64,000 bases of DNA, taken from Bidens hawaiensis. Lineage: Eukaryota; Streptophyta; Magnoliopsida; Asterales; Asteraceae. Under the pieces are notes generated by a model that saw nothing but the letters and a program-made list of their open reading frames with translations, did no database searches and was not told the DNA's origin. The first letter of the stretch is position 1. Each line of letters begins with the position of its first letter. This document shows, piece by piece, positions 4,108-62,903 of the stretch. Location of the stretch: NCBI GenBank assembly GCA_021521415.1, contig JAIQDT010000232.1, positions 1,611,001-1,675,000 on the forward strand, given 5' to 3'. The position numbers and the translations under genes were made by a program.

Positions 4108-4538
4108 TGTTGGTACATGTTTGTCAGTAGTTCATAGTCTAGTATTTGTTATCGAGTCTGTAATATAGTTAATGGTTTGTTTATGGTTTGTTTTGTAAAC
4201 TAGCGAAGTTATCAGCAAGTTCGCTATGGCGAACTTGCTGATCTAGCGAGGTTACTGACAACTTCGCCAGTGGCGAAGTTGTCGTGTTTAAATAGAACGT
4301 TTCAGCAGAGAACGGGGGTTAGGGTTTTGGTTTTACGTTTTGTTTCGTTTTGTTCTCTGTAACAGTGACCTACTGTCACGGGTTTGGTTATTCAATATAA
4401 CGTGTTTACCTTATAGCTCGTGTTCATTGTTCGTGTATTCAATCTATACAATATCTACGCTCGTATCTATATACGCAGGGATTCCGCACCTGCGTTGTTA
4501 GAGATTTCCCGTATACGATCCACGTCCAGGAACCTACA
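4108..4538 (+). repeat. 5' LTR of the intact copia element
   Basis: The LTR is 431 bp and runs from TGTTGG to CCTACA. The copy at 16077-16507 has the same length and shows no difference that I could find by eye. U3 carries two perfect hairpins directly before a TATA-like box. The Gag leader and primer site follow it. Confidence 0.97.
4211..4294 (+). promoter_or_regulatory. LTR promoter: two perfect inverted repeats and TATA-like box
   Basis: Inverted repeat 1 spans 4211-4242, with 14-base arms (atcagcaagttcgc and its complement) around TATG. Inverted repeat 2 spans 4257-4283, with 12-base arms (gacaacttcgcc and its complement) around AGT. TTTAAATA at 4287-4294 follows only four bases later, so it is the probable TATA box. 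Palindromes upstream of the LTR TATA have been described for Sireviruses in maize. Which protein would bind here is unknown. Confidence 0.7.
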
Positions 4539-4540
4539 AT

Positions 4541-4553
4541 TGGTATCAGAGCC
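4541..4553 (+). other. Primer-binding site (initiator tRNA-Met type)
   Basis: TGGTATCAGAGCC begins two bases after the LTR. It matches the complement of the plant initiator tRNA-Met 3' end, as is standard for plant copia elements. Minus-strand DNA synthesis would be primed here. Confidence 0.93.
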
Positions 4554-5078
4554 ATCGGCTCGATTGTGAGGTTCGGGATTTCACGCGGGTGTAGATTTCG
4601 TTTAATTTCGGGTGTTACCGGGACGAGTTTTTGGTGTGTTTATTCATTCTAGCTACCTACCAGTGTGTTTAAGCCTTTAAACCTTCAAAATTCTCGTTAA
4701 AATCCGAGTTTCAGATCTGAACTGTTCTTCGCGTTCATCGGGCGAAGTTGCTGAATTCAGGCGAAGTTGCCGTCACTGGAGATTAGGGTTTCGGCGAAGA
4801 TATAAGGATTAGCGAAGTTAACCACAACTTCGCTTACCTCATAAGTTCGCCAAAGCGAAGTTATCCGTAACTTCGCTTACCACCCAACTTCGCTTACATC
4901 CTAAGTTCGCTCATTCTAAGCGAAGTTATTCTTAACTTCGCCAAGTCAAGCGAATTTAAGATCCAGCGAAGTTCTTGTTCAGCGAAGTTAACTTCCAGCG
5001 AAGTTATTCTTAACTTCGCCATCTGAGCTGTTTTAATATTTTTTTTGTGTTTTTCAGGTTTTTCAGGTTTTCGCAAGG
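4554..5078 (+). other. gag leader with GCGAAGTT/AACTTCGC inverted-repeat cluster
   Basis: This is untranslated. From about 4735 to 5022 it is filled with the octamer GCGAAGTT and its complement in alternating orientation, for example 4812-4819 paired with 4827-4834. Two acceptor-like TTTTTCAG sequences end at about 5056 and 5065, shortly before the gag ATG at 5079, so part of the leader may be spliced out. No clear donor was identified. Confidence 0.65.
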
Positions 5079-7703
5079 ATGTCCGCGATTAACATCTCAG
5101 ATTTAGTCAAGATGGAGGTAGAGGCGGGGTCAGCCACTAAGGCCCCGAGGTTGATGAAGGGAACGGACTTCGTGGCATGGAAGGACAGGTTCATCCAGTA
5201 TATCAAATATCAGGACGCCAAGATGTGGGTGTGCATGCAGGATGGATATGTACCTCCAACCATGCAATACGAAGGACGTGATGTGGTGAAGAAGTACAGT
5301 AAGATGGATGACGAGGAGAAGAAAATGTATGAGGCTGAGAGTAAGGCCCATGCTGCTATTACTATGGCACTACCTCAAGAAGTTCTTCATACATTCCGAA
5401 AGTACACTTCTGCAAGAGAGCTCTGGGATGCTCTGGAAAACAGATTCGAGGGGAACGTGGGTATACGTGCCTCAAAAATTAAACTTTTAAAAACCCAATT
5501 CTCCGTCTTCAAATATTTGAAGAATGAATCCTTAGATGATATTATCACCCGATACTATCACTTAATGACAGAGCTTAGCAACTATTCAATTGCCTATCGA
5601 GAGGAGGAGATCGTTGAAAAGCTTCTAGATGCTCTCCCACCGAAGTGGGAAATGTATACCGTGTTAATGAGGGAAGACAAAGACTTTCCTAACTGTGACT
5701 TAGAAACTGCAGTGAACAAGCTCAGAACGTATGAGCTAAATATGGTTCGAAAGGAGACACCCACAGACCAGATACAAGACCCTGGTATGTATGGTGCTAA
5801 AGTTAACTCAGGCTCAAGTTCAAGGCCTGAATCTGCTGCATTTTATTCGAAGGGGGAGTCAGGTTCTGACTCTGCACATGAAGGAAATGTTTCTGTGAAC
5901 TCAAATGGGGACGTATGTTTTGTTGCTGGAGGATCTAGTGCTTCAAAGCCTCAATCCTCTACAAGTGGTTATTCAGCTGGTCCCACAAGCAATAATTACA
6001 CCAAGATGCCTATGAGTGTAAAATCTGCTGAAGAGCAGTTTGCAGTCTACGCTTCATTTATTGCTTCATACGAGAATTATATCCAGGGGAAGATTGTGGA
6101 CCCTGCCGTTCTTGATGAGGATTATGACCAGATTGATGCTGACGATTTGGAAGAAATGGATTTGCAATGGCAAATGGCAATGATCGTGAGACGGGTAAAA
6201 CGTTTTATGAACAAAACAGGAAGAAAGTTTGTTGGTGGTAGGCCTGGATTTGACAAATCAAAAGTAAGGTGCTACAATTGTCAACAGTTCGGGCACTTTG
6301 CTAGGGAATGTAGGAATGAGAGAGTTGAACGGGGACAAGTTAGGCCTAACCAACACTCTGGAATTAACCGCGAGATCAATGCCATGTTAACTAGAGAGGC
6401 AGGAGAATACAACTGGAACCAACACTCAAGTGGTTTGGGTGAACAAGCACACATGGCTGAGACTGAAGCTGTAGAAGTTGAGAAGGTTGATGGAGAGAAG
6501 AAAGCAAATGAAGAAGAAACTGCTTTCATGGCGAACGATCAGGATGGTAGATCCAAGGTATGTCCCAAAATTATTTGTGCTAATTGTGAAAATTTGACTG
6601 AGCAACTAACCAATATAACTGATCAGTATGTCAAATTAGATGCTGAGTTTAAAACTGTTAAAGAAGATCACCATTTCATTAAAGCAAGAGAAAACAGTTA
6701 TAAAGTTAAGATAAAGGCTTGTGAAAAAGACATTAAAAGTCTTAAAACTAAACTTGCTGAGAAAATAGAAATTATTGATCTTAGTTATGAGGTTTTGGAA
6801 GAAAAGACAAAATTGATTGCTGATAGAGATAAACAGATTGCTGACCACCAGGTAAAGGTGGTGGAACTGAACCGCAAACTTGAGCAGTTCAGAAACTCCT
6901 CGGCTATCCTTGATCACCTTGTGAGTGATCCAAGTACCTCTGCAAAGAGGGCAGGAATCGGATACCACGAGGTTCCACCACCCTTTAACCATAATTACAC
7001 TTATAATCCAAGTGTTCAGAAATCTGTTGATTTTGAGATTGCTCAGTCAACCCCAATTAGAATTACTAGTGTCAAACCAAGTGTTAGCTGTGGCGAAACA
7101 AGTTCGCCTGTTTCTAGTGTGAATATTTCTGTATCAAGTCCAGTCTCATCAGATTCGGATATGTTGTCCGAATCTGGTCAGACAAAAGAAAAGGTAGAAT
7201 TACCCACCAGTGGAGATAATGATAAAGTTTCTAAAAAGAGTTCTCCACTCAATCCGTACGTCCCACCTTATGTGAGACGAACGGCTGGTAATACTACCTC
7301 TACATCCAAACCAACATTTGACAAGAAAATGGAGAGTAGATGTTGCTTTAGATGTAACAGGTTAGGACATCTTGTTGCAGATTGTCCTTTGAAACCGAGA
7401 TTCAGAGATGTGAAGCCAAATAAAAATGAGAATAAGCGTCATTTTATTCCAGCTAAAAATGAAAACTTTAAAAATTGCCAAAATGTAACGAATTCAAGTT
7501 TTCATAAAAACCAACCTCATTTTTACAACCAAACCACAAGAAATAACACTTTCTATTCTCAAAGGTTTGGAAGGCATTACACTCAATCTGCAGGGAGATT
7601 CCCTAACAGGACGTACAGAAATTATCCTGACGCTAACTTGAGAAAGCCAGGGTACGGGATGTATCGATCCAAGACCAACTGGTCTTGGGTCCCAAGATTC
7701 TAA
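5079..7703 (+). CDS. gag: Gag of the intact copia element (874 aa)
   Basis: This is the structural polyprotein that packages the element RNA into cytoplasmic particles. Residues about 25-220 are the capsid-type UBN2 region (W-K-D-R-F near 30, A-L-P-Q-E-V-L near 95, L-W-D-A-L-E-N-R-F near 110). A CX2CX4HX4C zinc knuckle lies near 398-411 (C-Y-N-C-Q-Q-F-G-H). A Lys/Glu-rich coiled-coil stretch follows at about 490-620. A second knuckle (C-F-R-C-N-R-L-G-H) is near 756-770, and a basic Asn-rich tail ends W-V-P-R-F-stop. Length, coiled coil and the W-V-P ending fit Sirevirus Gags. The ATG at 5079 is the first one after the leader and starts the conserved region. The frame is unbroken. It overlaps pol, which lies in the -1 frame. 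Confidence 0.95.
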   Translation: MSAINISDLVKMEVEAGSATKAPRLMKGTDFVAWKDRFIQYIKYQDAKMWVCMQDGYVPPTMQYEGRDVVKKYSKMDDEEKKMYEAESKAHAAITMALPQEVLHTFRKYTSARELWDALENRFEGNVGIRASKIKLLKTQFSVFKYLKNESLDDIITRYYHLMTELSNYSIAYREEEIVEKLLDALPPKWEMYTVLMREDKDFPNCDLETAVNKLRTYELNMVRKETPTDQIQDPGMYGAKVNSGSSSRPESAAFYSKGESGSDSAHEGNVSVNSNGDVCFVAGGSSASKPQSSTSGYSAGPTSNNYTKMPMSVKSAEEQFAVYASFIASYENYIQGKIVDPAVLDEDYDQIDADDLEEMDLQWQMAMIVRRVKRFMNKTGRKFVGGRPGFDKSKVRCYNCQQFGHFARECRNERVERGQVRPNQHSGINREINAMLTREAGEYNWNQHSSGLGEQAHMAETEAVEVEKVDGEKKANEEETAFMANDQDGRSKVCPKIICANCENLTEQLTNITDQYVKLDAEFKTVKEDHHFIKARENSYKVKIKACEKDIKSLKTKLAEKIEIIDLSYEVLEEKTKLIADRDKQIADHQVKVVELNRKLEQFRNSSAILDHLVSDPSTSAKRAGIGYHEVPPPFNHNYTYNPSVQKSVDFEIAQSTPIRITSVKPSVSCGETSSPVSSVNISVSSPVSSDSDMLSESGQTKEKVELPTSGDNDKVSKKSSPLNPYVPPYVRRTAGNTTSTSKPTFDKKMESRCCFRCNRLGHLVADCPLKPRFRDVKPNKNENKRHFIPAKNENFKNCQNVTNSSFHKNQPHFYNQTTRNNTFYSQRFGRHYTQSAGRFPNRTYRNYPDANLRKPGYGMYRSKTNWSWVPRF

Positions 7704-10700
7704 CTCATTGTTTTATTGTGCAGGAACAGTTGAACAGGGCTGCCAACAATCTTTGGATTGTAGATAGCGGCTGTTCCCGGCACATGACTGGCAACAAACA
7801 CTTGTTGCAAGATTTAAAACCTGTTCAGGGAGCTAGAGTTAGTTTTGCTGGTGAAAGTGGAGGACGAATAACTGGAAGAGGAACAGTGTCAAATGGGAGG
7901 ATGACACTAGAGAATGTGAATTTTGTGGAGGAGTTAAAGCACAATCTGCTAAGCGTGTCGCAGATTTGTGATAAAGATTATACTGTCCATTTCACGAAAG
8001 ATGAAGCGATTGTGTTAAAGCCTGGTTTTCAAATACCAGAAGAATGGATTGTGATGAAAGCTCCACGTGAGACAAACACTTATGTGATGGATATGAGGTC
8101 AACTGTAATGATAACTGGAGAATCATGTTTACTGACAAAAGCTAGCGAATCTGAATCGGAGCTGTGGCACAGGAGGATGGGACATATTCATCTTCGGAAG
8201 ATGAACTACCTTGTCAGAAATGGGCTTGTGATTGGTGTTCCTTTAAAAAATTTCAACTTTGAAGATAAATGTATTGCATGCAAGAAAGGAAAACAACATA
8301 AGAAAAGCCATCTCACCAAGAAGATTAATTCAATAGGTGGTACTCTAGAGTTACTTCATATGGATCTCTTCGGTCCAGTGAATGTACAAAGTCTTGGCGG
8401 TACTTCCTACTGCTTGGTGATAACTGATGATTACTCGCGATACTCGTGGGTATACTTTCTGAAAACTAAAGATGAGACTGCTCAGATGGTAAAGAATCTA
8501 ATTACAAAAGTTGAGAATATCATGAGCAAATCAGTTAAGTACATCAGAAGTGACAATGGGACGGAGTTCAAAAATTTTGAAATGGAAATCTTCTGTCTTC
8601 AGAAGGGCATTGAGCATCAATTCAGCGCTCCGTATACTCCACAACAGAATGGAGTGGCTGAAAGGAAGAACCGAACGTTGATAGAAGGAGCCAGAACTAT
8701 GCTGGCTGACTCAAAACTTCCTGTGATGTTCTGGGCTGAAGCGGTGGCTACAGCCTGCTATGTTCTGAATCGGGTGTTAACGGTTAAGAAGCTTGGAAAA
8801 ACGTGTTATGAGCTTATGCAAGGAAGGAAGCCCAACTTGTGCGGTCTTGAGCCATTTGGGTCTCCTTGTTCGATTTTGAAGCCTAACTCGAAATTTGGGG
8901 AAGTAGCTGATGAGGGAATCCTCGTTGGTTACGTTGTTGGGACCCCCAACAGACGGATCTTCAATACTTCCACTTGCAAGGTGGAGGTGGTCTGTAACAC
9001 TGACATTACTAGTTACCAACCGCCAAAACCAAGCAATGGACCGGCGGAGCTCTTTGACTATGTTAAACTTTTTAAGTCGTTTAACGTGCCTGATCTGGAG
9101 ATTTCTGAAGTGGAAGAAACTACTGCGACGAAGATGATTTTTGATGAGGAAGAGAATTTACTGCACCATCAGATGACTGAAACATCTCAACCTTCCACAT
9201 CAAACCCTTTCAATACCCCTGCGGCCTCAACTGAAGACGAATTCCTTAATCCGTTTCACTCTCAGCCTGAAACAACCATAGATGAGCTCTCTTCAAACTT
9301 AGAAGACAATCTGCATGTCGGTGCTGTACCGACCACGAGAATTCACAAGAATCACCCACTGGAGAATGTTATAGGTGATGTGTCCTCCGGTGTACAAACC
9401 AGAAGTAGTTTGACCGAGAACACCTGTGTCTATACCAGCATAAGAGACACAGGTATACTGAATGAATGTTTGTACTCCTGCTTTATAAGCCAAATTGAAC
9501 CAAAAAATTATCAAATGGCTTTAAAGGACAGCTCGTGGGTCGATGCCATGCAGGAAGAGTTGGCTCAGTTCAAGAAGATGGAAGTGTGGACTTTGGTTGA
9601 AAAACCAAAGCATGTGCATGCTATAGGCACAAAATGGGTGTTCAAATGCAAGAGAGATGATAAGGGAATAGTCGTGCGTAATAAGGCGAGGCTGGTGGTT
9701 AAAGGTTTCAATCAACAAGAGGGTATTGATTACAATGAAGTTTTCGCTCCTGTTGCCCGGTTAGAAGCAATTCGACTGTTTTTGGCATTTGCTGCTTTTA
9801 AGAAGATGAAGGTTTTTCAGTTGGATGTTAAGAGTGCGTTCCTTAACGGGAAAGTTGATGAGGTTGTGTATGTTGAGCAACCTCCGGGTTTTCCAGACCC
9901 GGACTTTCCTGATCACGTATACAGGTTGAGCAAGGCATTATATGGGTTACATCAGGCTCCTCGGGCCTGGTATTCAACTTTATCTGATTACTTGCTGGAA
10001 AATGGTTTCGAGAGGGGGTTGATAGACAGCACGCTTTTTGTAAAGAGAGATGGATGTGACTTCCTGCTGGTTCAAGTCTACGTGGATGACATAATTTTTG
10101 CAGCCACAAGAGTATCCATGTGTCAGGATTTTGAGGACGTCATGAAGAAACGATTCGAGATGAGTGCAATGGGTGAACTAACTTTCTTTTTAGGTTTGCA
10201 GGTGGATCAAAGGAAGGATGGTATGTTCATTCATCAAACGAAATATGTTCATGATGTGCTGGAAAGATTCAAGATGGGGGACAGTTCTCCATTTGACACA
10301 CCAATCTGCGTCAATCACAAACTGGGAACTGAATCAGACGGTGACGCGGATGTGGACCCTACTCAATATCGGGCGATAATAGGTTCTTTGATGTATTTAA
10401 CTGCTTCTAGACCTGATATTATGTTTGCTGTTTGTCTTTGTGCTCGTTTCCAGGCAAACCCAAAGGAATCTCACATGAAAGGTGTGAAGAGGATCTTGCG
10501 GTACCTCAAAGGCAAGCCGAAACTAGGGTTGTGGTACCCGAAAGGTGGAGACTTTGAACTGATAGCATACTCGGATTCTGACTATGGTGGTTGTAATCAG
10601 AGTCGGAAGTCAACAACGGGAGGCTGCCAATTTCTTGGAGGAAGATTAGTTTCATGGCAGTGCAAGAAACAAACATCGGTTGCAATTTCAACATGTGAAG

Positions 10701-11026
10701 CTGAATACATGGCAGCATCCAACTGCTGCTCCCAGGTTTTATGGATTCAGCAACAATTGCGCGACTACGGTTTGAATTTTCTACTCTCTCCCATTTTAAT
10801 TGATAACACTGCCGCAATCTCAGTCATTAACAATCCCGTGAAGCATAGTAAAACAAAGCATATTGACATTCGTCATCACTTCATACGGGATTGTGCTGAG
10901 AAGAGACTCATTAAGATCGAAAAAGTTGATACTCTTGAAAATCTTGCTGACTTGTTCACAAAAGCTTTTGATAAATCAAGATTTCTTAACCTGATTGAGC
11001 TTAACGGGATGGTCAATCCCGAGTAA
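7685..11026 (+). CDS. pol: Pol of the intact copia element (protease, integrase, RT, RNase H)
   Basis: The open frame gives about 1,113 residues from a non-ATG position at 7685; the true N-terminus is unknown. It is in the -1 frame relative to gag, so it needs a frameshift or splicing. Domains in order: protease with W-I-V-D-S-G-C-S (about 23-31); GAG-pre-integrase with L-W-H-R-R-M-G-H (about 160) and a C-I-A-C motif; integrase with D in H-M-D-L-F-G (about 225), D in R-S-D-N-G-T-E-F (about 288) and E in N-G-V-A-E-R-K-N (about 325); reverse transcriptase with [10 protein letters not shown] and the Y-V-D-D catalytic motif (about 798); RNase H with Y-S-D-S-D-Y-G-G (about 962) and D-L-F-T-K-A-F at the end. 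All key residues are present and there are no stops, so the enzyme set looks functional. An A-run follows the stop. Confidence 0.95.
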   Translation: MGPKILTHCFIVQEQLNRAANNLWIVDSGCSRHMTGNKHLLQDLKPVQGARVSFAGESGGRITGRGTVSNGRMTLENVNFVEELKHNLLSVSQICDKDYTVHFTKDEAIVLKPGFQIPEEWIVMKAPRETNTYVMDMRSTVMITGESCLLTKASESESELWHRRMGHIHLRKMNYLVRNGLVIGVPLKNFNFEDKCIACKKGKQHKKSHLTKKINSIGGTLELLHMDLFGPVNVQSLGGTSYCLVITDDYSRYSWVYFLKTKDETAQMVKNLITKVENIMSKSVKYIRSDNGTEFKNFEMEIFCLQKGIEHQFSAPYTPQQNGVAERKNRTLIEGARTMLADSKLPVMFWAEAVATACYVLNRVLTVKKLGKTCYELMQGRKPNLCGLEPFGSPCSILKPNSKFGEVADEGILVGYVVGTPNRRIFNTSTCKVEVVCNTDITSYQPPKPSNGPAELFDYVKLFKSFNVPDLEISEVEETTATKMIFDEEENLLHHQMTETSQPSTSNPFNTPAASTEDEFLNPFHSQPETTIDELSSNLEDNLHVGAVPTTRIHKNHPLENVIGDVSSGVQTRSSLTENTCVYTSIRDTGILNECLYSCFISQIEPKNYQMALKDSSWVDAMQEELAQFKKMEVWTLVEKPKHVHAIGTKWVFKCKRDDKGIVVRNKARLVVKGFNQQEGIDYNEVFAPVARLEAIRLFLAFAAFKKMKVFQLDVKSAFLNGKVDEVVYVEQPPGFPDPDFPDHVYRLSKALYGLHQAPRAWYSTLSDYLLENGFERGLIDSTLFVKRDGCDFLLVQVYVDDIIFAATRVSMCQDFEDVMKKRFEMSAMGELTFFLGLQVDQRKDGMFIHQTKYVHDVLERFKMGDSSPFDTPICVNHKLGTESDGDADVDPTQYRAIIGSLMYLTASRPDIMFAVCLCARFQANPKESHMKGVKRILRYLKGKPKLGLWYPKGGDFELIAYSDSDYGGCNQSRKSTTGGCQFLGGRLVSWQCKKQTSVAISTCEAEYMAASNCCSQVLWIQQQLRDYGLNFLLSPILIDNTAAISVINNPVKHSKTKHIDIRHHFIRDCAEKRLIKIEKVDTLENLADLFTKAFDKSRFLNLIELNGMVNPE
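7700..7723 (+). promoter_or_regulatory. Splice-acceptor-like signal overlapping the gag stop
   Basis: CTAAC (7700-7704) matches a plant branch-point and contains the gag TAA. It is followed by a T-rich run and TTGTGCAG ending at 7723. The same arrangement occurs in element A (minus strand, 284 to 259) and in element H (22198-22222). Its use as an acceptor is an inference. Confidence 0.45.
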
Positions 11027-11063
11027 CCATGTTCTACCTTAAAAAAAAAAAAAATGTCTTTAT

Positions 11064-11337
11064 TGCTTAAAATTAGTCGGTTATCTCAGTTTGATGGACA
11101 TCTCCTCGGATATGTTTTGGTCCTTGTTTTCGATTTAGGAGATGAGGATAGCCATTAACCGGAAGACTGAAAGTAACTGGGACAGTCTTGACATGTTTTC
11201 TTTCAGTTGCTGAAAATTAGTCGGTCATTCTTAGTAAGAAGGACACATACTTGTATGTGGTCGGTCCAGTTGATCCAAGGATCTTCAGGATAGCCGTTTA
11301 CCTGATGACTTTGACATGATTGGGGCAATTGAAGTCA
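11064..11337 (+). ncRNA. Two tandem structured-RNA-like modules downstream of pol
   Basis: Two related units, about 11064-11188 and 11210-11337, share the order AAAATTAGTCGGT, a first hairpin, GGTCC, a second hairpin, AGGATAGCC, TTACC and a GGGNCA-like end. Unit 1 pairs cggtta (11078) with taaccg (11156), catctcct (11099) with aggagatg (11137), and agact (11164) with agtct (11184). Unit 2 pairs cacatac (11244) with gtatgtg (11253), gatcc (11272) with ggatc (11279), and tgactt (11306) with aagtca (11332). Stems change bases but keep pairing, which argues for selected structure. H, E and D carry the same twin modules. It is called ncRNA-like; it is probably part of the element RNA rather than a separate gene. 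Confidence 0.55.
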
Positions 11338-11768
11338 AAATTTTTTTTGGGAAATGAAATTACTTTTCAAGTCTATTACTTCGTAAGAAGTTCTTTGCTA
11401 TGTTTAACAGAAAATTGATCCAACCTTGGAAAATGATAGATATACTGATTGTGTGTGCTTAGCTAGTGAAGTTATTAGGCTTAAAAGGCTTTAGAACAGT
11501 CATTGTATGTCATGGTGATTTTAATGGTGCGTAAAAGTGTATGTGATACTAACTTAAATTTACTCGAATTTATGTGGAAACTCCTTAAGAGTTTTGCATG
11601 GCTTCATACATATCTTTTCGAATGATAGGCAGAAAGGCGACTACCCAGTCATACACGAGCCCGTGAGTGTTCTGATTCCCGTAAAGAAAGCATCTCAAGA
11701 CACTGCAGTGATCCAGATTCGGGACTTGCAGTAGTTTAGTACTCCGATGTAAATACTGATGTTGATTC

Positions 11769-11836
11769 AAAAAAAAAAAAAAAAAAATAAAAAAAAAAAA
11801 ATAAAAAAAAAAAAAAAATAAAATAAAAAAAATAAA
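11769..11836 (+). repeat. A-rich low-complexity tract
   Basis: This is a nearly pure A run with scattered T, about 68 bases, inside the spacer after pol. It could be a slippage product. A second, shorter A-run lies right after the pol stop (11041-11054). Confidence 0.9.
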
Positions 11837-12441
11837 TTTTATTCATGTATCATTTTTGTACTTATGAGAAATAGTGACAATCAAGACGAGAACCGAGACT
11901 TCTCAAGATTTCTCAAGTTTGGAGTAAGAAGAAAACGGGAAGCAGACAACAAGTATCTACAAGTTAATCAGACACTATGGGTCGAAGTCAATTCGGGGTG
12001 ACGTGGGTATAGCCAAATACGCTTTGAGAATAGATAGAAGTCATCATTACCTCTGAGTTGTTGCCATCTTAAATTTTTGAGCTTAACTGAACCTTAATCC
12101 GTATCACAGAAACAATGATAACCATTTAAGTTATTACATGCTTACAACCTGTCTCTCTATGTCATAATACAGCCAAACACGGATCCAAGTGACAGTCACA
12201 TAGCTAGTATGATTCCTGTTCGGATCTTTTCAAAAACGTAGTGGTCCCTGACTAGACTGAAATTTGATCCCTTATTTCGTTAAAATTATATAAGTATTTT
12301 CTGTTACGTAGTTATTTTATTTTTATTATTTTATTATTATTGGTTACTTGGACATAATCATTTTAGTTATAACTCTTTTTGGAAGTTTTCAAGGTTAAAT
12401 GACAGATTTTTCAAACTTAAAGGGCTGATTTTGAAGGTACT

Positions 12442-12549
12442 GGCGAAGTTGTTGAATTTGGCGAAGTTGTTGAATTTGGCGAAGTTGTGCTTAACTTCGC
12501 CATGGCGAAGTTAATCGTAACTTCGCCGGACACAACTCCGCCCTATATA
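12442..12549 (+). promoter_or_regulatory. Probable internal promoter of the third ORF: inverted-repeat cluster and TATA box
   Basis: GGCGAAGTT occurs repeatedly from 12442, then twice as perfect inverted repeats: 12478-12501 (9-base arms) and 12504-12527 (10-base arms, loop ATCG). TATATA follows at 12544-12549. This is the same order and the same octamer as in the element's own LTR (4211-4294), although the flanking sequence is not an LTR copy. H, E and D each show an inverted-repeat cluster and a TATA-like box at the matching place. Transcription from it is inferred. Confidence 0.6.
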
Positions 12550-12669
12550 CGTTATGTCACTGTGCTCATTTGTTATCTTCCGGCGAACATATATTCACTA
12601 AACCCTACGGCAATCTTTATACTCAATCGTCTTTTCGATCTTGTGTTTCTTGTTACTATTATTCGTGTG

Positions 12670-13226
12670 GTATGTGTTATCTCTTGCGTCTTACCTCTCT
12701 CGTTCGTAATAGTTTACCCGGTTCGAGACCTCGGATCGTCGGTTTTTCAAAACCAAGTTTTTCCGACCCTTTGTTACGTGCTCATGGACGAGCCTTACGT
12801 CTCAAATCCTTTGAAATATGTTGTTCTTCACTTATAAATCATCGATTTTGTCCGAAAACCATCGGACAAAATCGATTGAATCTCAACAGTCGCTGGTTCT
12901 GGTTCTGGCGAAGTTAAGGTTTTGGCGAAGTTATCATCAACTTCGCCAGTGGCTGAAGTTCGCCAATGGCGAAGTTGTCCCCAACTTCGCCCTCGGCTTA
13001 AGTTCGCCAGTGGCGATGTTAACCGTAACTTCGCCAAGAATTTAACTTCGCCTATTTCCAATGCCTTATCAGTTTTCAGACGAACTTAAGGACGAAGCGA
13101 AGTTGTCTCCAACTTCGCCTCATCCTTAACATCGCCTGTACTGGTTACCTCACAACTTCGCACTTGGTAAACCGCGAGCTTGTGATTTCGGTTTTAAACG
13201 GTTCTAACTTGATTTGTTTTGTGCAG
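12670..13226 (+). other. Probable leader intron of the third ORF, containing a second inverted-repeat cluster
   Basis: A donor-like G/GTATGT at 12670 and an acceptor TTTTGTGCAG ending at 13226, two bases before the ATG, delimit 557 bases. Most of 12905-13165 is again GCGAAGTT and its complement in alternating orientation. Matching introns can be drawn in H (27955-28573), D (62033-62903) and E (51387-50484, minus), where the donor is AAG/GTATA. No transcript data are available here. Confidence 0.5.
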
Positions 13227-13228
13227 AT

Positions 13229-16018
13229 ATGGCTGCTGTTGGAGGAACTGGTGGTAATGACGGTGATGACCAACGACGACAATTCTTTCCATCCCACAAC
13301 CAATATATCACCTTAGATCCGGATGCACGAGGCTTAGATGATTTCAGGGAGATTATCACATTTCTCCAGCGATCAAGGATATTTCATGCTATAACGACAA
13401 CATTGCCCATCTCCCTACCAAACATTGAGGACTTCTGGGAGACAGCTTACCTTGATTGCAGGGCTGAGCCTTCGGTGATTAGAGCAACCGTAAATGGCCA
13501 AAACATACAATTCTCTTCTGAGGATATACGGTTGGCTCTGCAATTCGGTGCAGAAACCAGAGATGACCCTACGGAATTCACAGCTCCTTTCCGTGATGGA
13601 GCATATTTGAGAATGGGCTATTCGGGTCCACTGGGGGACTCACAAAGGAGGAAAGGCTTTCTGCTGGACCAATGGCGGTTCTTGATGCATGTGTTGATTG
13701 TTTGCATGTCCGGCAGGAAGGCGGGGACAGACGGAATGGGGGCGACGATGCAATCGGCTATGCTTGCGCTGACTTATAATCGCAGATACTCATTTAGTCA
13801 GATGATATTCTATGAGATTGATCGCCAAATACGGGCTGCGGCGCGCGAGCGATTCACTATGTATCCGCGCTTCTTGCAGATGATTATCAATCACATTGCT
13901 CCGTCTCTACCGCAACGGCGCCCAATCCGATACGTTGAGGGTGTATCCAAGCGTATCTTCGCTCAGTGCAGGACGTCAAGCACACGGAGCAACCCTGAGC
14001 GTCGTCCCAGGCATACTCCTCTTTTCGGGTATCTAATTAACCCAGAGTATGTCCATGCAGGCGGGGATGAGTTCAGGGATCCACAACAACATCAGGCGGC
14101 AGCACCTCCTGCTGTATTTGCTGCGCCTGTTGTCACTTCTGCTGCTATGCCAGCTACTTCATCGCAGGCTGTGTCTACTGCTGAAAACATTGATCTGGAT
14201 GCTGCTTTCAGTGGACACGGTCTGTTCGATATGGATCTCTCGGGTAATCAGTATTTGGGTACTACCTCAGCGGCTACTTCGGTAGCTGAAACCGAGCTGG
14301 ATGAAACGTTTGCTGAGGCCAGACGGTTGTTGGTGACTCGGGAGAGGACAACGGGTAAGCGGCCGAGGGCTGTGGATGAGGATGAAAATGATGAAGATGA
14401 GGAAGAGGCAGTCCAAGTTGTGCTGAGACGCTCACGTCGAGAACGACAAGGTATGGCCACTGGAGCGGGGGAGACTTCAAGGTACGTACGATTTGCTCCG
14501 CCTGCCTTGTCAGGTATGTCTCTATTGCCTACTACTGCACAGGTTACTGCGGTCGAGGCGTCGGCACCAGTAGTTGTGTCGCTACCACCCCAACTGGTTG
14601 ATCCCCCGGTGGTAGTTGCACGCTTCGTCGAATCAACAATTACAACAACTGCAGGGTTACCTAGGGTACCACCTGCGGTCACTTCTGCTACTGAGGTTCC
14701 ACCAACTCCATCGCCTGCTTCAGACTCTGAACGGATTGCTTCGCTGGAGCGTATTGTTACTGAACAATCGAAGACCATTGAACGCCTAGTGGAAGCCAAT
14801 CAAATCCAAGCCGCCCTCCTGGTAGAACACGGACGAGTTATCGATGCCTTCAAGGAATTCTTGGCATCTCAGGGGGAGACGACTTGCAGGGGCGATGAGT
14901 TGAGAACAAAGAGACGACAAGATCATGACGATGATCCCAATGCACCTTCGGGTGCAGGTGGTGAGCTGCCAAGAACCTCTCAGGCTCTTGGGGCTTCCAC
15001 AACTGAGGGGGAGTCAACTGATGCAGCGGGTGATGATGTTGTGGATGTTGATGACGATGCTGATGTTGAAGATGTCATCGATGCTTTGAAGGACTTAGAT
15101 GAGGAGGAGGATGATGACTGTGTGAATGATGATGACGTGTTGCCCGTGGAGGAGATAGAAAGGATTGGAGAAAAGATTGATGTGGTAAATGTGTTGGAAG
15201 AAGGAGAGATCGTGGATGATGCAGTGGAACATGAGATTCCAGCTGTTGAAAGAGCAGATTTTGGGGATAAGAATGTGGTAGATGAGATGGTGTGGGAAGA
15301 GCAGCCTAGATGGAAGGAAGAATATGCTCATTGGTTTGTCAAGACCAAGAAGCCTGCTGTTCCAACCATGTTCAGAAAGAGCTACAACATTAAAGGGTAT
15401 GCAGAGGCGAAAAAGGGGATTATTTGTTGGATTTATGATGAACAGCTCAAGTTGTTTGTGGTGAAGCGTTATGATGGCGTTCAATATTTCAAGAGAATGT
15501 TGAGATCGTTCAACACATTGCCTGAATGCGAAGTAAAGGACTTGGCCAGGTTGGGCCTGATAAACAGAAGCAACGACAATATGGCTAGAATGATTGAGAA
15601 GATAATGTGGAAAGAAGGAGTAAAAGAAAAGAAGTTCGAGTTGCTAAAGCCACAAAAGGGAAAATTAGTGAAGGATACAGAAAGAGGTATGAGAGCAGAT
15701 GGTAAACCGTGGATGGTGATGAAGTACAAACCAGTCCGATGTATCAAGGAGGTACCCATGAAAACTATGCCTCAAAATGTACTGAAAGATCTGAAATGGT
15801 GGTATGTGGATTGCGAGACAGCTGAGGCGGTTATGGAAGATGAGGACGAACAAGAAGTACTTCGGGTTTATGACCCGATGCATCTTGTTAATCTATCGCA
15901 GGCTGATCTGGAAGTGCTGAACAACAAGAAGATCTTCTACATTCCTGCTTGGAAGGATCAAGCGAGGAAATATCAAGGAGTTGTGTCGGTTTGTGTGAGA
16001 GAAGGGGCGCACGCGTGA
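13229..16018 (+). CDS. Third ORF of the intact copia element (929 aa), function unknown
   Basis: The ATG at 13229 lies two bases after a splice-acceptor-like GTGCAG. The frame extends upstream, but only by non-ATG codons. Residues about 35-235 form a domain shared with the ORFs at 49681-50478 and 62909-64000. It has R-S-R-I-F-H-A-I-T near 45, F-W-E-T-A near 70, I-R-A-T-V-N near 85, and F-T-M-Y-P-R-F-L-Q near 210. I recognise this domain from anonymous proteins of daisy-family repeats. Then come a low-complexity part, a basic patch (G-K-R-P-R), a coiled coil near 500-550, a strongly acidic stretch near 600-680, and a basic, Trp/Lys-rich C-terminal domain near 690-925. There is no signal peptide or membrane segment, so it is not Env-like despite its position. 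A nuclear or RNA-associated role is possible but unproven. Confidence 0.85.
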   Translation: MAAVGGTGGNDGDDQRRQFFPSHNQYITLDPDARGLDDFREIITFLQRSRIFHAITTTLPISLPNIEDFWETAYLDCRAEPSVIRATVNGQNIQFSSEDIRLALQFGAETRDDPTEFTAPFRDGAYLRMGYSGPLGDSQRRKGFLLDQWRFLMHVLIVCMSGRKAGTDGMGATMQSAMLALTYNRRYSFSQMIFYEIDRQIRAAARERFTMYPRFLQMIINHIAPSLPQRRPIRYVEGVSKRIFAQCRTSSTRSNPERRPRHTPLFGYLINPEYVHAGGDEFRDPQQHQAAAPPAVFAAPVVTSAAMPATSSQAVSTAENIDLDAAFSGHGLFDMDLSGNQYLGTTSAATSVAETELDETFAEARRLLVTRERTTGKRPRAVDEDENDEDEEEAVQVVLRRSRRERQGMATGAGETSRYVRFAPPALSGMSLLPTTAQVTAVEASAPVVVSLPPQLVDPPVVVARFVESTITTTAGLPRVPPAVTSATEVPPTPSPASDSERIASLERIVTEQSKTIERLVEANQIQAALLVEHGRVIDAFKEFLASQGETTCRGDELRTKRRQDHDDDPNAPSGAGGELPRTSQALGASTTEGESTDAAGDDVVDVDDDADVEDVIDALKDLDEEEDDDCVNDDDVLPVEEIERIGEKIDVVNVLEEGEIVDDAVEHEIPAVERADFGDKNVVDEMVWEEQPRWKEEYAHWFVKTKKPAVPTMFRKSYNIKGYAEAKKGIICWIYDEQLKLFVVKRYDGVQYFKRMLRSFNTLPECEVKDLARLGLINRSNDNMARMIEKIMWKEGVKEKKFELLKPQKGKLVKDTERGMRADGKPWMVMKYKPVRCIKEVPMKTMPQNVLKDLKWWYVDCETAEAVMEDEDEQEVLRVYDPMHLVNLSQADLEVLNNKKIFYIPAWKDQARKYQGVVSVCVREGAHA

Positions 16019-16060
16019 AAGTGCAAGATTACAAGACTCAGAGATCAAGATATGAAGCTA

Positions 16061-16076
16061 CTGCCAAGGGGGAGTC
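16061..16076 (+). other. Polypurine tract
   Basis: The purine run AAGGGGGAG lies directly before the 3' LTR. It is the usual plus-strand primer site in reverse transcription. Confidence 0.85.
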
Positions 16077-16507
16077 TGTTGGTACATGTTTGTCAGTAGT
16101 TCATAGTCTAGTATTTGTTATCGAGTCTGTAATATAGTTAATGGTTTGTTTATGGTTTGTTTTGTAAACTAGCGAAGTTATCAGCAAGTTCGCTATGGCG
16201 AACTTGCTGATCTAGCGAGGTTACTGACAACTTCGCCAGTGGCGAAGTTGTCGTGTTTAAATAGAACGTTTCAGCAGAGAACGGGGGTTAGGGTTTTGGT
16301 TTTACGTTTTGTTTCGTTTTGTTCTCTGTAACAGTGACCTACTGTCACGGGTTTGGTTATTCAATATAACGTGTTTACCTTATAGCTCGTGTTCATTGTT
16401 CGTGTATTCAATCTATACAATATCTACGCTCGTATCTATATACGCAGGGATTCCGCACCTGCGTTGTTAGAGATTTCCCGTATACGATCCACGTCCAGGA
16501 ACCTACA
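16077..16507 (+). repeat. 3' LTR of the intact copia element
   Basis: This LTR is 431 bp, the same length as the 5' LTR and identical as far as I can see by eye. It is followed by the second CTGGA target copy (16508-16512). Confidence 0.97.
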
Positions 16508-25583: not shown

Positions 25584-27469
25584 TCAATTTTATTTTATTT
25601 TTTTATATTGATTTCTTTATTTTATTGTTTAGGGTTTTGGGGGAGAAATGGAAAAATACAAAAATATTATGATTTCTGTATGTATAGAGAAATTCCAAAA
25701 ATAATAAAAATTTGAAAATGCAAAAATATTGTGATTTCAATATGTATAGAGAAAAACCAAAAACATTCAAATATTTCAAAAAGTTCAAAAATATTTTTTT
25801 ACACTCTTTCGCTTAAAATTATGCCAGTTTCTCAAAATTTAATGAACATATACTTGTACATATTTGGTCCTGATATTTACTTGTAGATATTAGGGATAGC
25901 CATTTACCTGAAAATGGAAAGTAATTGGGGTGACTGCTGAGTGTATTTATTTAATTCTTTCGTTGAAAATTATGTCAGTTATTTAAGTTTGTGAAACATG
26001 TTTACATGTTTTGTCCTGATATCTACTAGTAGATTTATAGGATAACCATTTATCTATAGACTGAAAGTGACTGGGACGACTGAATTTTAAATGCTCCTCG
26101 AAAATGATTTTTGAAGAAAAAAGAGAAAATGATAGTACATTGATCATCTAGTCCCATATCCAGAAAGAAATAAGCTTAAAAGACTGAGTCCTTAATTGCT
26201 TTGGTTCATTGATAAGTCTTAAACAAACCGTTAAGGTAAAGTATGTGATATAAACATAAAGAACTGTCAAATTGAACGAGGTGTTAGTCTCTTCCAAAAG
26301 TTTCGGTAATGAAGGCGTAAATTTAATAGTCTATCATACTCAAGCCTTATGTCTGCTTGTCACTAAAAACAAAAATTACAAATAAATTGTATCTGGTTTA
26401 TGGTTAACACCGCAATGGTGTATGGTTATATAATCTCAAATCTTGTATTGATGGAATGCATCTGGTTTCTGGACACTGTGAGTCTTTATGCGGCTTAATT
26501 ATCTAGGTATTCATAAACATGAATATTTCAAAAGCTTTTAGAGCAAACCCGAAGTCATTAAACTTGATCACTACGGTACATTGTACAAATTCATTACTGA
26601 CTTGCTCAAAATCCGTTGTTAGTCATACATTGTTCCTCCCTTGAGTGCGTCTTAATACCAATAAGAAACGGACCCCAGGGGATACAATGTATGTAAGCCT
26701 ACAAATGAACTCGTGCATACTCATTCGCAGTAAAGAAAGCTTGGTGTATTGCTTGATAACGGGGGCATACCTTGTAGTGGGGATTATGAGCTTAGATTTT
26801 AATAAATCTACAAAAATGTATATTTTGATTAGTAGCATAATGGCTTATGTCAAGTTGGGGTGACATGGTAAAAGTGAAATTAAGTTGGAACCGAGATCAA
26901 AGGCAGATAGTTTCTGATATTATGTGCTCTAATTAAAAATTAAATCATATCACAAAAATACTCTAAGGTGTATTATAAGATTTAAGTGGACAACAATATT
27001 AATGACCGACTTAACACCAGTCATAATAACACTGAAAAATAAAACTGCGATGGAAGGGCGATTTGGTCAATATGATTCTCTGCTCAACTCACAAACATAT
27101 GCACTGCTTTCGTAGAATAGTTTTCATATTTGTCTTCAGTTTATTTGTTTTTTTACATTAAAATATTCAAAAATCCAAAAATATTGTGTTCTCTATTTTT
27201 GTTTTCTGCTTTATTTTCGATTTTCAAGCTAAAGGTACATATTTGAAAAAGAAAATACCAAAAAGATTTTCCCAATATTTATTTAATTCCTTTAAGTAAT
27301 TGGTTTAAATTATCTATTTTTAACTTTTGTGTTTTGAACGCAAAGCACGTTAAGGTGTTGCATCTTACTCCGAGTGGTAAGAATCTTAAGGTAAAGTTCA
27401 TCGGGACACGGGTTTCGATGCATTATTTAATTCTTGAAAGTTATGATGAAAAAGTTTCAATTGAATTTA
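25584..27469 (+). other. Element H noncoding spacer after pol
   Basis: This is noncoding. It contains twin modules at 25809-25936 and 25959-26082, a block strongly conserved with E and D at about 26465-26735, and A/T-rich sequence with a repeated CAAAAATATT word (25640-25790 and 27165-27190). Confidence 0.7.
25809..26082 (+). ncRNA. Twin structured-RNA-like modules, element H copy
   Basis: Unit 1 (25809-25936) has a second hairpin atattta/tagatat with one G-U type pair. Unit 2 (25959-26082) has aacatg/catgtt and atctac-TA-gtagat. The order of constant words (AAAATTATG, GTCCTGAT, GGATA, CCATTTA, then a GGGNNGACT ending) matches the other elements. Confidence 0.5.
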
Positions 27470-39828: not shown

Positions 39829-39902
39829 AGGGATGTAGCGCAGTTTGGTAGCGCGTTTGTTTTGGGTGCAAAATGTCACGGGTTCAAATCCTGTCATCCT
39901 TA
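39829..39902 (+). tRNA. trnP-UGG: Plastid-type tRNA-Pro(UGG), probably a non-functional copy
   Basis: The cloverleaf order is clear: AGGGATG acceptor strand, GCGC D-stem, anticodon TGG in the loop TTTGGGT, T-loop GTTCAAATC, and closing CATCCTT. The acceptor has one G-T pair, and the anticodon stem differs slightly from the plastid gene I remember. In this nuclear location it is probably not used. Confidence 0.85.
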
Positions 39903-40217: not shown

Positions 40218-40289
40218 GGGTGTATAGCTCAGTTAGTAGAGCATTTGGCATTTAACTAATGGTTGCAGGTTCTAGTCCTACTATACCTA
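40218..40289 (+). tRNA. trnK-UUU: Mitochondrial-type tRNA-Lys(UUU) pseudogene
   Basis: GGGTGTATAGCTCAG begins a sequence of tRNA length with anticodon TTT in the loop CATTTAA and closing CTATACC. The base before the anticodon, universally U33, is A here. The T-loop reads TTCTAG instead of TTCAAG. Both argue for a decayed copy of the plant mitochondrial gene. Confidence 0.75.
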
Positions 40290-50483: not shown

Positions 50484-51387
50484 CTGTATAAGTATAAACG
50501 AATATGAGTAGACGTAAAATGTATTCAATATCAAAATATGTCAACTTATTTATAAGTGGTGTATTAATTGTCATAAGATGTATGTATTTCGGTTATTTAC
50601 GCGTTTAGACGACTGAAATACTTTATATAATTTAAAAATGAATTTTAAAATTAATTGAAATTGAATGTCATTCGTTAGATATCCCACTGATTCGTTACTA
50701 TTCAATAACGAATCGTGCGATTCACTATCAAGTAAATAAGCTAACGAAGTAGACCAAGCGAAGTACTATTCAAAAGAACGAACTATGTTCTAGTTCGTTA
50801 TAAATTGACGAACCCATATCAGATTCGTTAACAAGGTTATTCGCTGATCTAGTTCGTGTCACTCCTTAACGAATTGGACACGAAAAGTCCCAATTCGCTA
50901 AAGATCACGAATGGTCAGTAAATTAGACTTGATCTTTAACTCTCAAAGTCAAGGTAAAATTAACAAGAACATGAAAGGTCAACAACACAAATCCAGCTAC
51001 AATTAGCTCATGCTTATCGTCGAACAAACAAAGTAGCAGATCTATGTGACTCGGAATCGCTATACGAAGCTCACGGTGTTAAGATTGAGGCTTAACACCG
51101 TATCCTAAGACCAGAACACTCAATACATAAACAGAGTCTAAAACCCTTAAACAATAATCATTCACACGACCCGGCAAACAATAATCAATCGTTGATTAAA
51201 GTCTACCCAGGGTATCGGAATCGCATTCCAATCATAATGAATCAAAAATAAGCAAGTTTAACATAAGATACCATAAATAAATCAGGTTTATAAACTCGGA
51301 AAAACCCTTAAATCTAAAAAGTCCATTATTACTCTAATAATACATAGTTATTTTTGACGAAAATCACATCGTTGTGATTATCTATAC
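50484..51387 (-). other. Element E: probable leader intron of the third ORF
   Basis: On the minus strand, TCTAAG/GTATAG at 51387 and TTATACAG ending at 50484 match the pair in D (62033-62903). A cluster of ATTCGTTA/CGAAT words lies at 50660-50910 inside it. Confidence 0.45.
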
Positions 51388-59485: not shown

Positions 59486-59574
59486 CTATCTTTATTTTAT
59501 GTCATTTTTTCTTTTAAAATTTATTTTGGTTTTAGGGGGTGAAAATCTAGAAAATACAAAAAGATTGTGTTTTT

Positions 59575-59945
59575 TCGTCTGTATAGATAAAATTCAAAAA
59601 CATTAAAAATTCCTAAAAATCCAAAAAGATTGCTTTCTTTTCTTTAATGTCTTCCGTTAAAATATTTTGAAAAACCAAAAACATTTTAAAATTATGAAAA
59701 TCCTAAAAGAATGTAGTTTTCAGTTAGTACAGAAAAATCCAAAAATCCAAAAAGATTGTTTCGTCTGTATAGATAAAATCCAAAAAAACATTAAAAATTC
59801 ATAAAAATCCAAAAAGATTGCTTTCTTTTCTTTAATGTTTTCCTTTAAAATATTTTGAAAACCAAAAACATTTTAAAATTATGAAAATCCTAAAAGAATG
59901 TATTTTTCAGTTAGTACAGAAAAATCTTAAAATCCAAAAAGACTG
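59575..59945. repeat. Tandem duplication, 186-bp period, with AATCCAAAAAGATTG words
   Basis: TCGTCTGTATAGATAAAA recurs at 59575 and 59761, with about 90 percent agreement by eye over the unit. Each unit contains several CCAAAAAGATTG-like words. Confidence 0.85.
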
Positions 59946-60039
59946 TGAAGTTTATTTTGTTTATAAGAAAATTGATAAAGACAAAAATATTGTGTTTTTA
60001 AAGTTTGTATAGAGAAAAACCAAAAAGATTTTGCATGCG

Positions 60040-60314
60040 TTCGCTGAAAATTATGTCAATTATCTACACTTGAAAGGCATGTACGTGTATATGTTTGGTC
60101 CTGACATTTACTTGTAAATGATCAGGTTAGCAATTCACCTGATAATGGAAAATAGTTGGGGCGTTCGTTATGTGTTTTTAGATTATTTTCTCGCTGAAAA
60201 TTATGTCGGTTATTTAAGTTTGTGAAGCATGTTTGCATGTCTTGGTCCTATTATTCACTTGGTGAATTGATAGAACAGCCATTTATTTATAGACTTAAGT
60301 TAACTGGGGCGATT
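60040..60314 (+). ncRNA. Twin structured-RNA-like modules, element D copy
   Basis: Unit 1 (60040-60166) has the hairpin catttac-TT-gtaaatg at 60105-60120, extended by ctga/tcag. Unit 2 (60190-60314) has attcac/gtgaat around TTG, extended by ctat/atag, and gcatg/catgt before TTGGTCCT. Constant words are as in the other copies. Confidence 0.5.
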
Positions 60315-60546
60315 AAATTTATCTTTATTTTTTTTTTATGCTCCTCAAAATTTTGAGTTTTTTGAAGCAAAAAGAGAAAATGATAGTATATTGATTATCT
60401 TGACCCCAAGTCCAGCAAGAAGTAAGCTTAAAAGAATGTGTGCTTAATTGCATTGGTGCATTGGTAGGTCTTAAAACAACCAAGTAGAGTAAAGTATGTG
60501 ATATAAACATAAAGAAACGCCAAATTGAAAGGGGTGTTAGTCTCTA

Positions 60547-60724
60547 GAAAAGTCTCGGTGAGGATGGCAGAAATGTAATAACCTGTCATACTCAAGCCAT
60601 ATACTTGTTTGATCAACCAAAAATAACATAAAGCAGAAAAGTCTTGGTGAGGATGGCAGAAATGTAATAACCTGTCATACTCAAGCCTTATACTTGTTTG
60701 ATCAACCAAAAATAACATAAAGCA
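60547..60724. repeat. Tandem duplication, 89-bp period
   Basis: GAAAAGTCTNGGTGAGG starts at 60547 and again at 60636. The two units differ at only a few positions. Confidence 0.93.
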
Positions 60725-61619
60725 AATAACAAGCTTTGAGTTTCTGGACACTGTGAGTCTTTATGCGGCTTAATCATCTGGGTATTCATAAGCATGAATA
60801 TTTCACTCGCTTTCTAGAGCAAACCCAAAGTCATTAAACTTGATCACTGCTGTACTTCGTACAAATTTCCAAATTACTGACTTGATCAAAATCCGTTGTT
60901 AGTCATATATGGTTCCTCCCTTGCGTGCGTCTTAATACTATTAAGAAACGGACCCCAGGGGATACAATGTATGTAAGCCGACAGATGGACTCGTGCATAC
61001 TCACTCACAGTAACAGAAAATCAATGCATTGCTCATAAATTTCTATAAAAATAATTTTTGATCAACAATATAATGGTTTAAGTCAAGTTGGGGTGATATG
61101 GCTAAAATCAAATTTAGCTTGAACCGAGATTAAAGGCTGATAGTTTCTGATATTCTGTGCAATAATTGAACCAATTAATCATATCACAAAAACACTTGAA
61201 AGTTTGTAATTAGATTTAAGTGGACAACAATACCAATGACCGACTTAACGCCAGTCATAATATCGCTGAAATATAAAACTGTGATGGAAGGGCAATTTGG
61301 TCAATATGATTCTCTGCTCAAACTCAACAAAAACACAAAAATATGTACTGCTTTTGATAAATAATAGAAAAACACAAAAAGATTATTCATTTTTTATGTT
61401 CGGATATTTCTTTGTAGATACATTCTTTAAAATTTTTACAAAATACCAAAAATATTCTAACTTTCTTTCTTCATATATTATTTAATATTCCTTTAAGTTA
61501 TGTTTCGTAAAAGTAAAACATTTTTAAAGTATTCAATTATCGGGATAAAAGGTTCTCAATAATTCATTTAAGTTAAATTTTTTTTTATTTAATTCATTTA
61601 AGTTAAAATTAAATAAATT

Positions 61620-62032: not shown

Positions 62033-62903
62033 TATAGCTGATCATATCTTTGTGTATTACGTCAAAAATGCTACTGGTTAATTAGACTAAAGATGTGATT
62101 TTGTCCTAAGGGTTTTCACAGCTTGATAAACCCTGATTAATGGACATTAATCGGTCTTTATCTAGTTTATGTATAGTCATTTGTAACCGGAATGTGATTC
62201 CGAGACCTTGGGTAGACCTTAATCAATGATTGATTATTGTTTGCTGGGTTTGATTGAATGACAATACGTTTAGGTTTTTAAACTCTGTTTAATTTACGGA
62301 GTGTTCTTCTTTAGGGTCTGGTGTTAAGTCTCAATCTTAGCACCATGTGTGTCGGATTGCTATTCCGAGTTGGACAAATCTGTAGTTTTGATTATTCAAC
62401 GATTAGCATGAGCTAATTGAATCTGGTTTTGTCCAGATGACCATCTGTGTTCATAATAATTTTGACTTTGACTATGCGAGTCAAAGATCAAGTCTAAATT
62501 ATTGACCATTCGTTAACCTTAGCGAATTGAAACTGCATCGTGTCCAATTCGTAAAGGAAATACACGAACTAGCTCAGCGAATCACTTTCTCAACTAATCA
62601 AATACGGATTCGCTAAATCTGTAACGAACTAAACTTTAGTTCGCTAATATTTATAGTTAATTCGCTACAGCTAATTTGTTAATGTATTTACATGATAGCG
62701 AATCACTTGATTCATTACTGGATAGTAACGAATCAGAGTGATAATCACACGAATGACATTTATTTTTAATTATTTAATTCAATTTAAATTACCTTTAAAA
62801 TTCAATAAATTAGTTCAACCGTCTAAACGCGTAAATACATTAATTACACACGACATATTATACACATTATATATTACTAATACCTTTTCTAAACTCTATT
62901 CAG
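62033..62903 (+). other. Element D: probable leader intron of the third ORF
   Basis: Donor GCTAAG/GTATAG at 62033 and acceptor CTCTATTCAG ending at 62903, five bases before the ATG. A second cluster of GCGAAT/ATTCGCTA words lies at 62510-62750. Length and position match E and, loosely, H and the intact element. Confidence 0.5.

Follow-up and report, generated by a model that had tools for sequence, protein, structure and literature searches.

Constitutive transport elements (CTEs) of the type found in Mason-Pfizer monkey virus (MPMV) bind NXF1 and export unspliced RNA. The MPMV CTE itself is described as a single extended stem-loop, 150-175 nt in length and interrupted by two internal loops (PMC7551171). 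Structured export elements also occur in LTR retrotransposons of the mouse, where the IAP RTE and the musD MTE rely on RBM15, or on a pseudoknot and kissing loops (PMC12786077). The RNA stability element of RSV is likewise structured, and lies just 3' of a stop codon that is followed by a very long 3' UTR (PMC2925335). In plants, the copia element Evade (Copia93) of Arabidopsis carries an ENE, a functional fold with four U-rich tracts in internal loops, in the spacer between pol and the LTR (PMC12501189). The linkers of Sireviruses retain conserved signals despite ~5% linker identity, and the motifs reported there are copies of the polypurine tract (PPT), an inverted repeat at the PPT, palindromic boxes, a TATA motif and an integrase signal (PMC2829016). 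The sections of a 2025 review that deal with the subject state that RNA export of plant LTR retrotransposons has not been directly studied (PMC12786077).

Here we describe a module of two tandem units that follows pol in copia retrotransposons of Bidens hawaiensis, in a 64-kb stretch of genomic DNA that we call the window. Like the MPMV CTE, the module would be a cis-acting, structured signal whose recognition parts occur in duplicate, in a retroelement that has an unspliced genomic RNA. Unlike the CTE, it consists of two separate three-way junctions over ~275 nt; a single long stem with two internal loops is not what the units form, and the likeness proposed is one of analogy. The RSV element follows gag whereas the module follows pol, and the sections of the RSV paper that treat the element do not describe twin units (PMC2925335). 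Like the module, the Evade ENE sits between pol and the LTR of a plant copia element; it is U-rich in its internal loops, whereas the well-kept unpaired stretch of the units is A-rich, and we saw no facing U-rich tracts in internal loops within the units when the alignments were inspected by eye. The linker that hosts the module resembles that of Sireviruses in holding conserved signals, and no twin junction after pol appears among the Sirevirus motifs in the relevant sections of Bousios 2010 (PMC2829016). Searched against Rfam 15, the whole window returned only two tRNAs at the gathering threshold (39829-39902 and 40218-40289). At E <= 10 there were three matches around the module of element I and seven around that of element D, all below gathering; the modules of elements H and E were searched at the gathering threshold only. 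The sources reached by our literature search, which included few subscription journals, list no such twin element. We regard the fold as a candidate new Rfam family.

Element I (4108-16507), one host of the module, is a young copia insertion flanked by the target-site duplication CTGGA. Its LTRs (4108-4538 and 16077-16507, plus strand as are all features of I) are 431 bp long, begin with TG and end with CA, and are identical to each other. The primer binding site TGGTATCAGAGC lies at 4541-4552. ORF1, a stop-to-stop frame at 5037-7703, is a copia gag with CCHC knuckles (Pfam PF14223 and PF00098), and ORF2, at 7637-11026 in a different frame, is pol (Pfam rve and RVT_2). The two frames share 67 nt (7637-7703), and pol is reached from gag by a -1 step. 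A poly-U tract with CAG at 5040-5060, just before gag, is a possible acceptor of a leader intron. ORF3 runs from its first ATG at 13229 to 16018; among the 7991 candidates sharing most words that were scored, it has four distant relatives, all in Tanacetum coccineum at 24-27% identity, with PF20167 in two of them. The terminal PPT AGGGGGAG (16067-16074) starts 10 bp before the 3' LTR, as in SIRE/Sirevirus elements, and further PPT octamers occur at ~14872 and ~15007 inside ORF3 and at ~5851 inside gag. The AT/TG attachment site of that lineage is replaced by TC/TG at 16075-16078. ORF3 itself is a sense extra ORF between pol and the 3' LTR, a feature carried by 74% of SIRE elements according to the part of the survey that covers them (PMC6317226). 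By these sequence features the elements can be called SIRE-like. Palindromic repeats of the types GCGAAGTT and AACTTCGC occur in the LTR (4200-4290), in the leader (4740-5030) and before ORF3 (12440-13160), positioned like the repeated motifs of Sireviruses, without their CGG-CCG core. Three other copia copies in the window, H, E and D, retain the 3' end of pol.

The two units lie in I at 11062-11189 and 11206-11332 (covariance model matches of 108.6 and 97.4 bits), in H at 25808-25937 and 25959-26083 on the plus strand (111.8 and 125.7 bits), in E at 53366-53238 and 53216-53090 on the minus strand (130.8 and 119.1 bits), and in D at 60040-60168 and 60190-60316 on the plus strand (127.5 and 118.6 bits). 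The covariance model was trained on these same eight window units. When the window was searched with it at E <= 10 it gave nine matches: the eight units, two per copia copy, at E <= 5.7e-22, and a ninth at E 0.82. The twin units that a sequence-only reading of the window had reported after pol are thus confirmed as real, with coordinates now refined by model and alignment, and the stem sequences it quoted are present in them. Its statement that the module is present in all four copies that reach the third ORF holds within the window, with the qualification that only a 14-residue match to ORF3 was found in H.

Across the seven copies that could be measured, pol homology ends 35-594 nt upstream of the first unit. 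The gap is 35 nt after the stop in I and 257-594 nt in the six others, five of which fall at 387-594 nt. In D, a tandem 187-nt A+T-rich repeat lies between pol and the module (59573-59946). When the non-coding DNA after pol was compared between I and D, the module was the only clear match (62.5% over 296 columns, E 1e-16), with one further weak block at E 0.001.

To obtain a consensus structure the eight window units were aligned by sequence alone and folded with RNAalifold, which gave 39 base pairs. Each unit has an outer stem, made of P0, P1 and P1b/c, that closes a three-way junction with two hairpins, P2 and P3. P0 pairs UCGCU with GGGCGA and is separated from P1 (UCRGUUA/UAACUGG) by a ten-base A-rich bulge on the 5' side, with no unpaired bases on the opposite strand; P1b/c follows. 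P2 has a stem of the CAUGU/ACAUG type. P3 starts with UGGUCCU, which pairs with AGG and GCCA across a 3-nt bulge between the two. Inspection of 16 units by eye found AAAA(U/C)UA within the 5' bulge in 15, CCAUU 3' of P3 in 14, and a P3 bulge that reads AUA in ten, UUA in three, ACA in two and AUU in one. The earlier fold had captured P2 and P3; the outer stems P0, P1 and P1b/c, the A-rich bulge and the 3-nt bulge had been missed.

Several statistics bear on whether this pairing is maintained. With RNAalifold on two sequence-only alignments under four settings, none of 500 column shuffles was as stable in any case (z -8.5 to -11). In the sequence-only alignment A2 of the eight window units, the 39-pair structure is satisfied in 89.4% of its 310 cells; sliding the strands lowers this to 35-44%, and dealing the 3' letters anew gives 82.4% (0/500 reach the observed value). 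A double-sided change is present in 19 of the 39 pairs. Alignment A9, which holds 16 units, was fitted to the model and is biased towards structure, unlike A1 and A2, which were aligned by sequence; in it 89.3% of 617 cells pair, 23 of 39 pairs carry a double change, and dealing the letters anew gives 80.3% (0/500 as high). A tree-aware null that retains the tree, the per-column substitution counts and the paired ancestor predicts 70.3% paired cells (sd 2.7) for the 16 units, against 89% observed (0/1000 simulations). Taken by helix part, six of seven exceed this null on paired cells (<=10/300 simulations each), and the two-pair base of P3 does not (47/300). Eight new units from the rest of the genome, which played no part in defining the fold and were aligned by sequence, pair in 278 of 324 cells (85.8%; slid 37-42%), and keep pairing in 45 of the 57 cells where both bases differ from the window pair; the structure model was used to find these units, so that copies that pair are favoured among them, and inserted bases were dropped from their alignment. 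The minimum free energy fold of one unit recovers 71-84% of pairs in the other elements for seven of the eight window units (slid 31-48%), and the first unit of I is the exception at 53%. A pairwise G-test with APC and the tree null, which has little power with 14 units, found 0/39 pairs at E < 0.05 over the whole alignment (best 0.22), where the top column pair, at E 0.18, lies outside the structure; restricted to the 39 pairs, it found two at E < 0.05. Folding of single sequences is weak as well, with a mean z of -1.5 in sense and -0.9 in antisense over 14 units; the second unit of L031 is about equally stable in antisense and the first unit of E has a lower z there.

The sequence-only reading had proposed a functional RNA fold and had made the case depend on covariation in a larger alignment, which persisted when the number of units was doubled. 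Together with the out-of-sample pairing, the covariation gives good support to the view that the units form an RNA fold preserved through compensatory change. The pairs also indicate a strand. In the window units G-U pairs number 56 against 12 A-C, and in eight further units 43 against 6; because G-U far exceeds A-C, the sense RNA is the folding strand. The consensus energy is -40.0 kcal/mol in sense and -21.2 in antisense, with shuffles run for the sense strand only.

How widely the arrangement occurs was sampled in one genome, using 25 stretches of 10 kb picked by their position on contig C1, together with the left flank of the window (L012); sampled loci carry L numbers. At E <= 1e-15 the model matched three of the 25 stretches (L020, L031 and L032) and also L012, with a tandem pair in each. 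All eight distinct loci (I, H, E, D, L012, L020, L031, L032) hold exactly two units, whose starts are 143-151 nt apart. The same holds for seven near-identical copies of I (L003-L006 and L008-L010), which add no independent evidence because of that near-identity. Weak single matches in L022 (E 0.11) and L025 (E 0.94) were not counted as units. Two bacterial matches from a search of genome contigs are probably due to chance, as the model finds nothing in either, and pattern scans and a pol-piece search of viral contigs gave nothing usable. A search of the 3.47-Gb genome with the module of I yielded 2271 candidates, 40 of which were scored, the window's own included, and all 40 matched at 100% (rounded). 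Since the LTRs are identical and the scored matches uniform, the family carrying the module appears to be young.

Among eight copies that have the 3' end of pol and enough DNA downstream, seven carry the module (I, H, E, D, L012, L020 and L032). The eighth, L022, whose pol end is 47% identical, is without it. So are L036, which has an ORF3 and in which pol homology fades ~100 codons before its end, and L018, in which pol is 26% identical and its end is not reached. L031 has both module and ORF3, with the pol end outside the sampled stretch, and L035 was set aside because too little of it falls within its stretch. A module found mainly outside these elements would have spoken against the earlier reading; in the DNA sampled it follows pol at seven loci, and at L031 it sits at the cut end of the stretch. 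The units of H, E, D, L012 and L020 that stand second in their pairs cluster together in a 16-unit tree, and do so with support 0.996 in a tree of 14 units. In the 16-unit tree, E, D, L012 and L020 have first units that join the first unit of H, with a looser tie to the second units of L031 and L032. Among these five elements the duplication is thus an old one.

Conservation does not stop at the units. It extends over ~1.3 kb within D, E, H, L012 and L020 and among I, L031 and L032, continuing ~1 kb beyond the units, and some parts are better conserved than the units themselves. An identity profile of D against E, H, L012 and L020 places this non-coding linker domain at 60040-61360 (plus strand), with the twin units as its 5' part; the corresponding domain of I, at 11062-12272 (plus strand), is ~60% identical over ~890 columns to L031 and L032 (E 2e-44 and 3e-40). 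The blocks downstream of the units lie at 60340-61360 in D, 26092-27110 in H, 53075-52133 (minus strand) in E and 11420-12272 in I, with D and H 88-93% identical in part. We saw no long ORF common to the linker domains, and their folding signal is patchy. In these alignments the twin units form the structured 5' start of a conserved non-coding domain larger than themselves; because it outruns them and is in parts better conserved, they may serve a larger element.

Downstream of this domain, ORF3 begins at what looks like a splice acceptor. In I, a U-rich tract ending in CAG (13207-13226, plus strand) stops 2 nt before the ATG, and the predicted acceptors of D (62882-62903, plus strand; ATG at 62909) and E (50484-50505, minus strand; ATG at 50478) stop 5 nt before it. 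A U-rich tract with YAG was found at six of seven readable ORF3 starts, at 2 nt in I, L031 and L032 and at 5 nt in D, E and L020; in the seventh, L036, the CAG is replaced by CAA. The count leaves out H, L012 and L014. Four tracts scored by script hold 13-15 pyrimidines in 20, and counts by eye gave 11 for L031, just below the script cut-off of 12, and 14 for L032. Such a site precedes 55 of the 2546 ATGs in the window. In L022 a site of this kind precedes an ATG at 1327 that is not tied to a frame. We found no convincing splice donor. The predicted acceptors suggest that the extra ORF is expressed from a spliced mRNA in the manner of retroviruses. In the sections of the reviews that treat it, retrovirus-like splicing is reported for the extra ORF of barley Bagy2, with the role of such ORFs debated (PMC7264820), and splicing is reported for the plant copia element Evade and for Ogre (PMC12786077). 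Lying between the pol stop and the acceptor-like site, the pair of units would stay in genomic RNA and leave the spliced ORF3 mRNA, which presumes a donor 5' of the module.

We hypothesise that the module is a cis-acting element of unspliced RNA that acts like the export elements of retroviruses. By analogy this is a possible reading, which we favour tentatively and hold at somewhat below even chances. Only the unspliced gag-pol or genomic RNA would retain the module, with ORF3 made from the spliced mRNA. The A-rich bulge AAAA[U/C]UA, the 3-nt bulge of P3 and the junction sequence CCAUU may be binding sites for a host factor or for the element's own Gag, and the bound factor would let intron-containing RNA exit the nucleus and persist. 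The module would then work like the MPMV CTE, the direct repeats of RSV and the mouse IAP and musD transport elements, by analogy. The sequence-only reading had offered an export role as a guess, and a guess it remains: the tandem duplication and the location between pol and the ORF3 acceptor-like site fit it, but decay protection and packaging would suit the data as well. Against export stand the variable distance from pol to module, the two loci without a module (L022 and L036), the missing donor, the absence of an Rfam match and the conservation that extends past the units. The stronger proposal, that the module is the first export element for the RNA of a plant LTR retrotransposon, built as a duplicated three-way junction that evolved independently of the retroviral elements and is paired with a spliced ORF3, we consider doubtful. 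Either way, a defined fold of ~275 nt, in a family that has identical LTRs and numerous near-identical copies, offers a concrete object for testing.

It is also conceivable, though rather unlikely, that the module protects RNA from UPF1-dependent decay as an RSV-type stability element. The RSV element is structured and lies within 400 nt after gag, in the sections of the paper that describe it (PMC2925335), and the module starts 35-594 nt after pol homology; the gap of 387-594 nt in five of seven copies argues against this, as does the lack of any conserved pyrimidine-rich tract to be seen in the 16-unit alignment. We think it unlikely that the module is a packaging or dimerisation signal. The A-rich bulges would here be contacted by zinc knuckles of Gag, restricting packaging to unspliced RNA; the CCHC knuckles are present, each RNA would offer two binding sites, and the module is predicted to be absent from spliced ORF3 mRNA. 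Known packaging signals lie mostly near the 5' end, which speaks against it. An intronic fold that sets the usage of the ORF3 acceptor, upstream of which the module does lie, is improbable, since 1.9-2.6 kb separates the two in I, D, E and L020, far for direct action. We give very little weight to a device of the plant-virus type, either a 3' cap-independent enhancer or an exonuclease-stopping fold: branched folds are typical of the 3' regions where such devices sit, but a cap and a poly(A) tail are to be expected on retrotransposon RNA, and no Rfam model came near gathering around the I and D modules. That the RNA has no function, the units being DNA palindromes that serve as binding sites or a remnant of duplication, is scarcely credible, since distant outer strands covary, G-U pairs are in excess, the strands are asymmetric and pairing holds out of sample, even if the lineage has palindromic repeats in LTR and linker and the mean single-unit folding z is only -1.5.

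One further observation concerns the sampled DNA. At positions 2813-8577 of L029, five primer binding sites lie 1440-1442 nt apart with a gag match after each, forming a tandem array of retrotransposon 5' ends.
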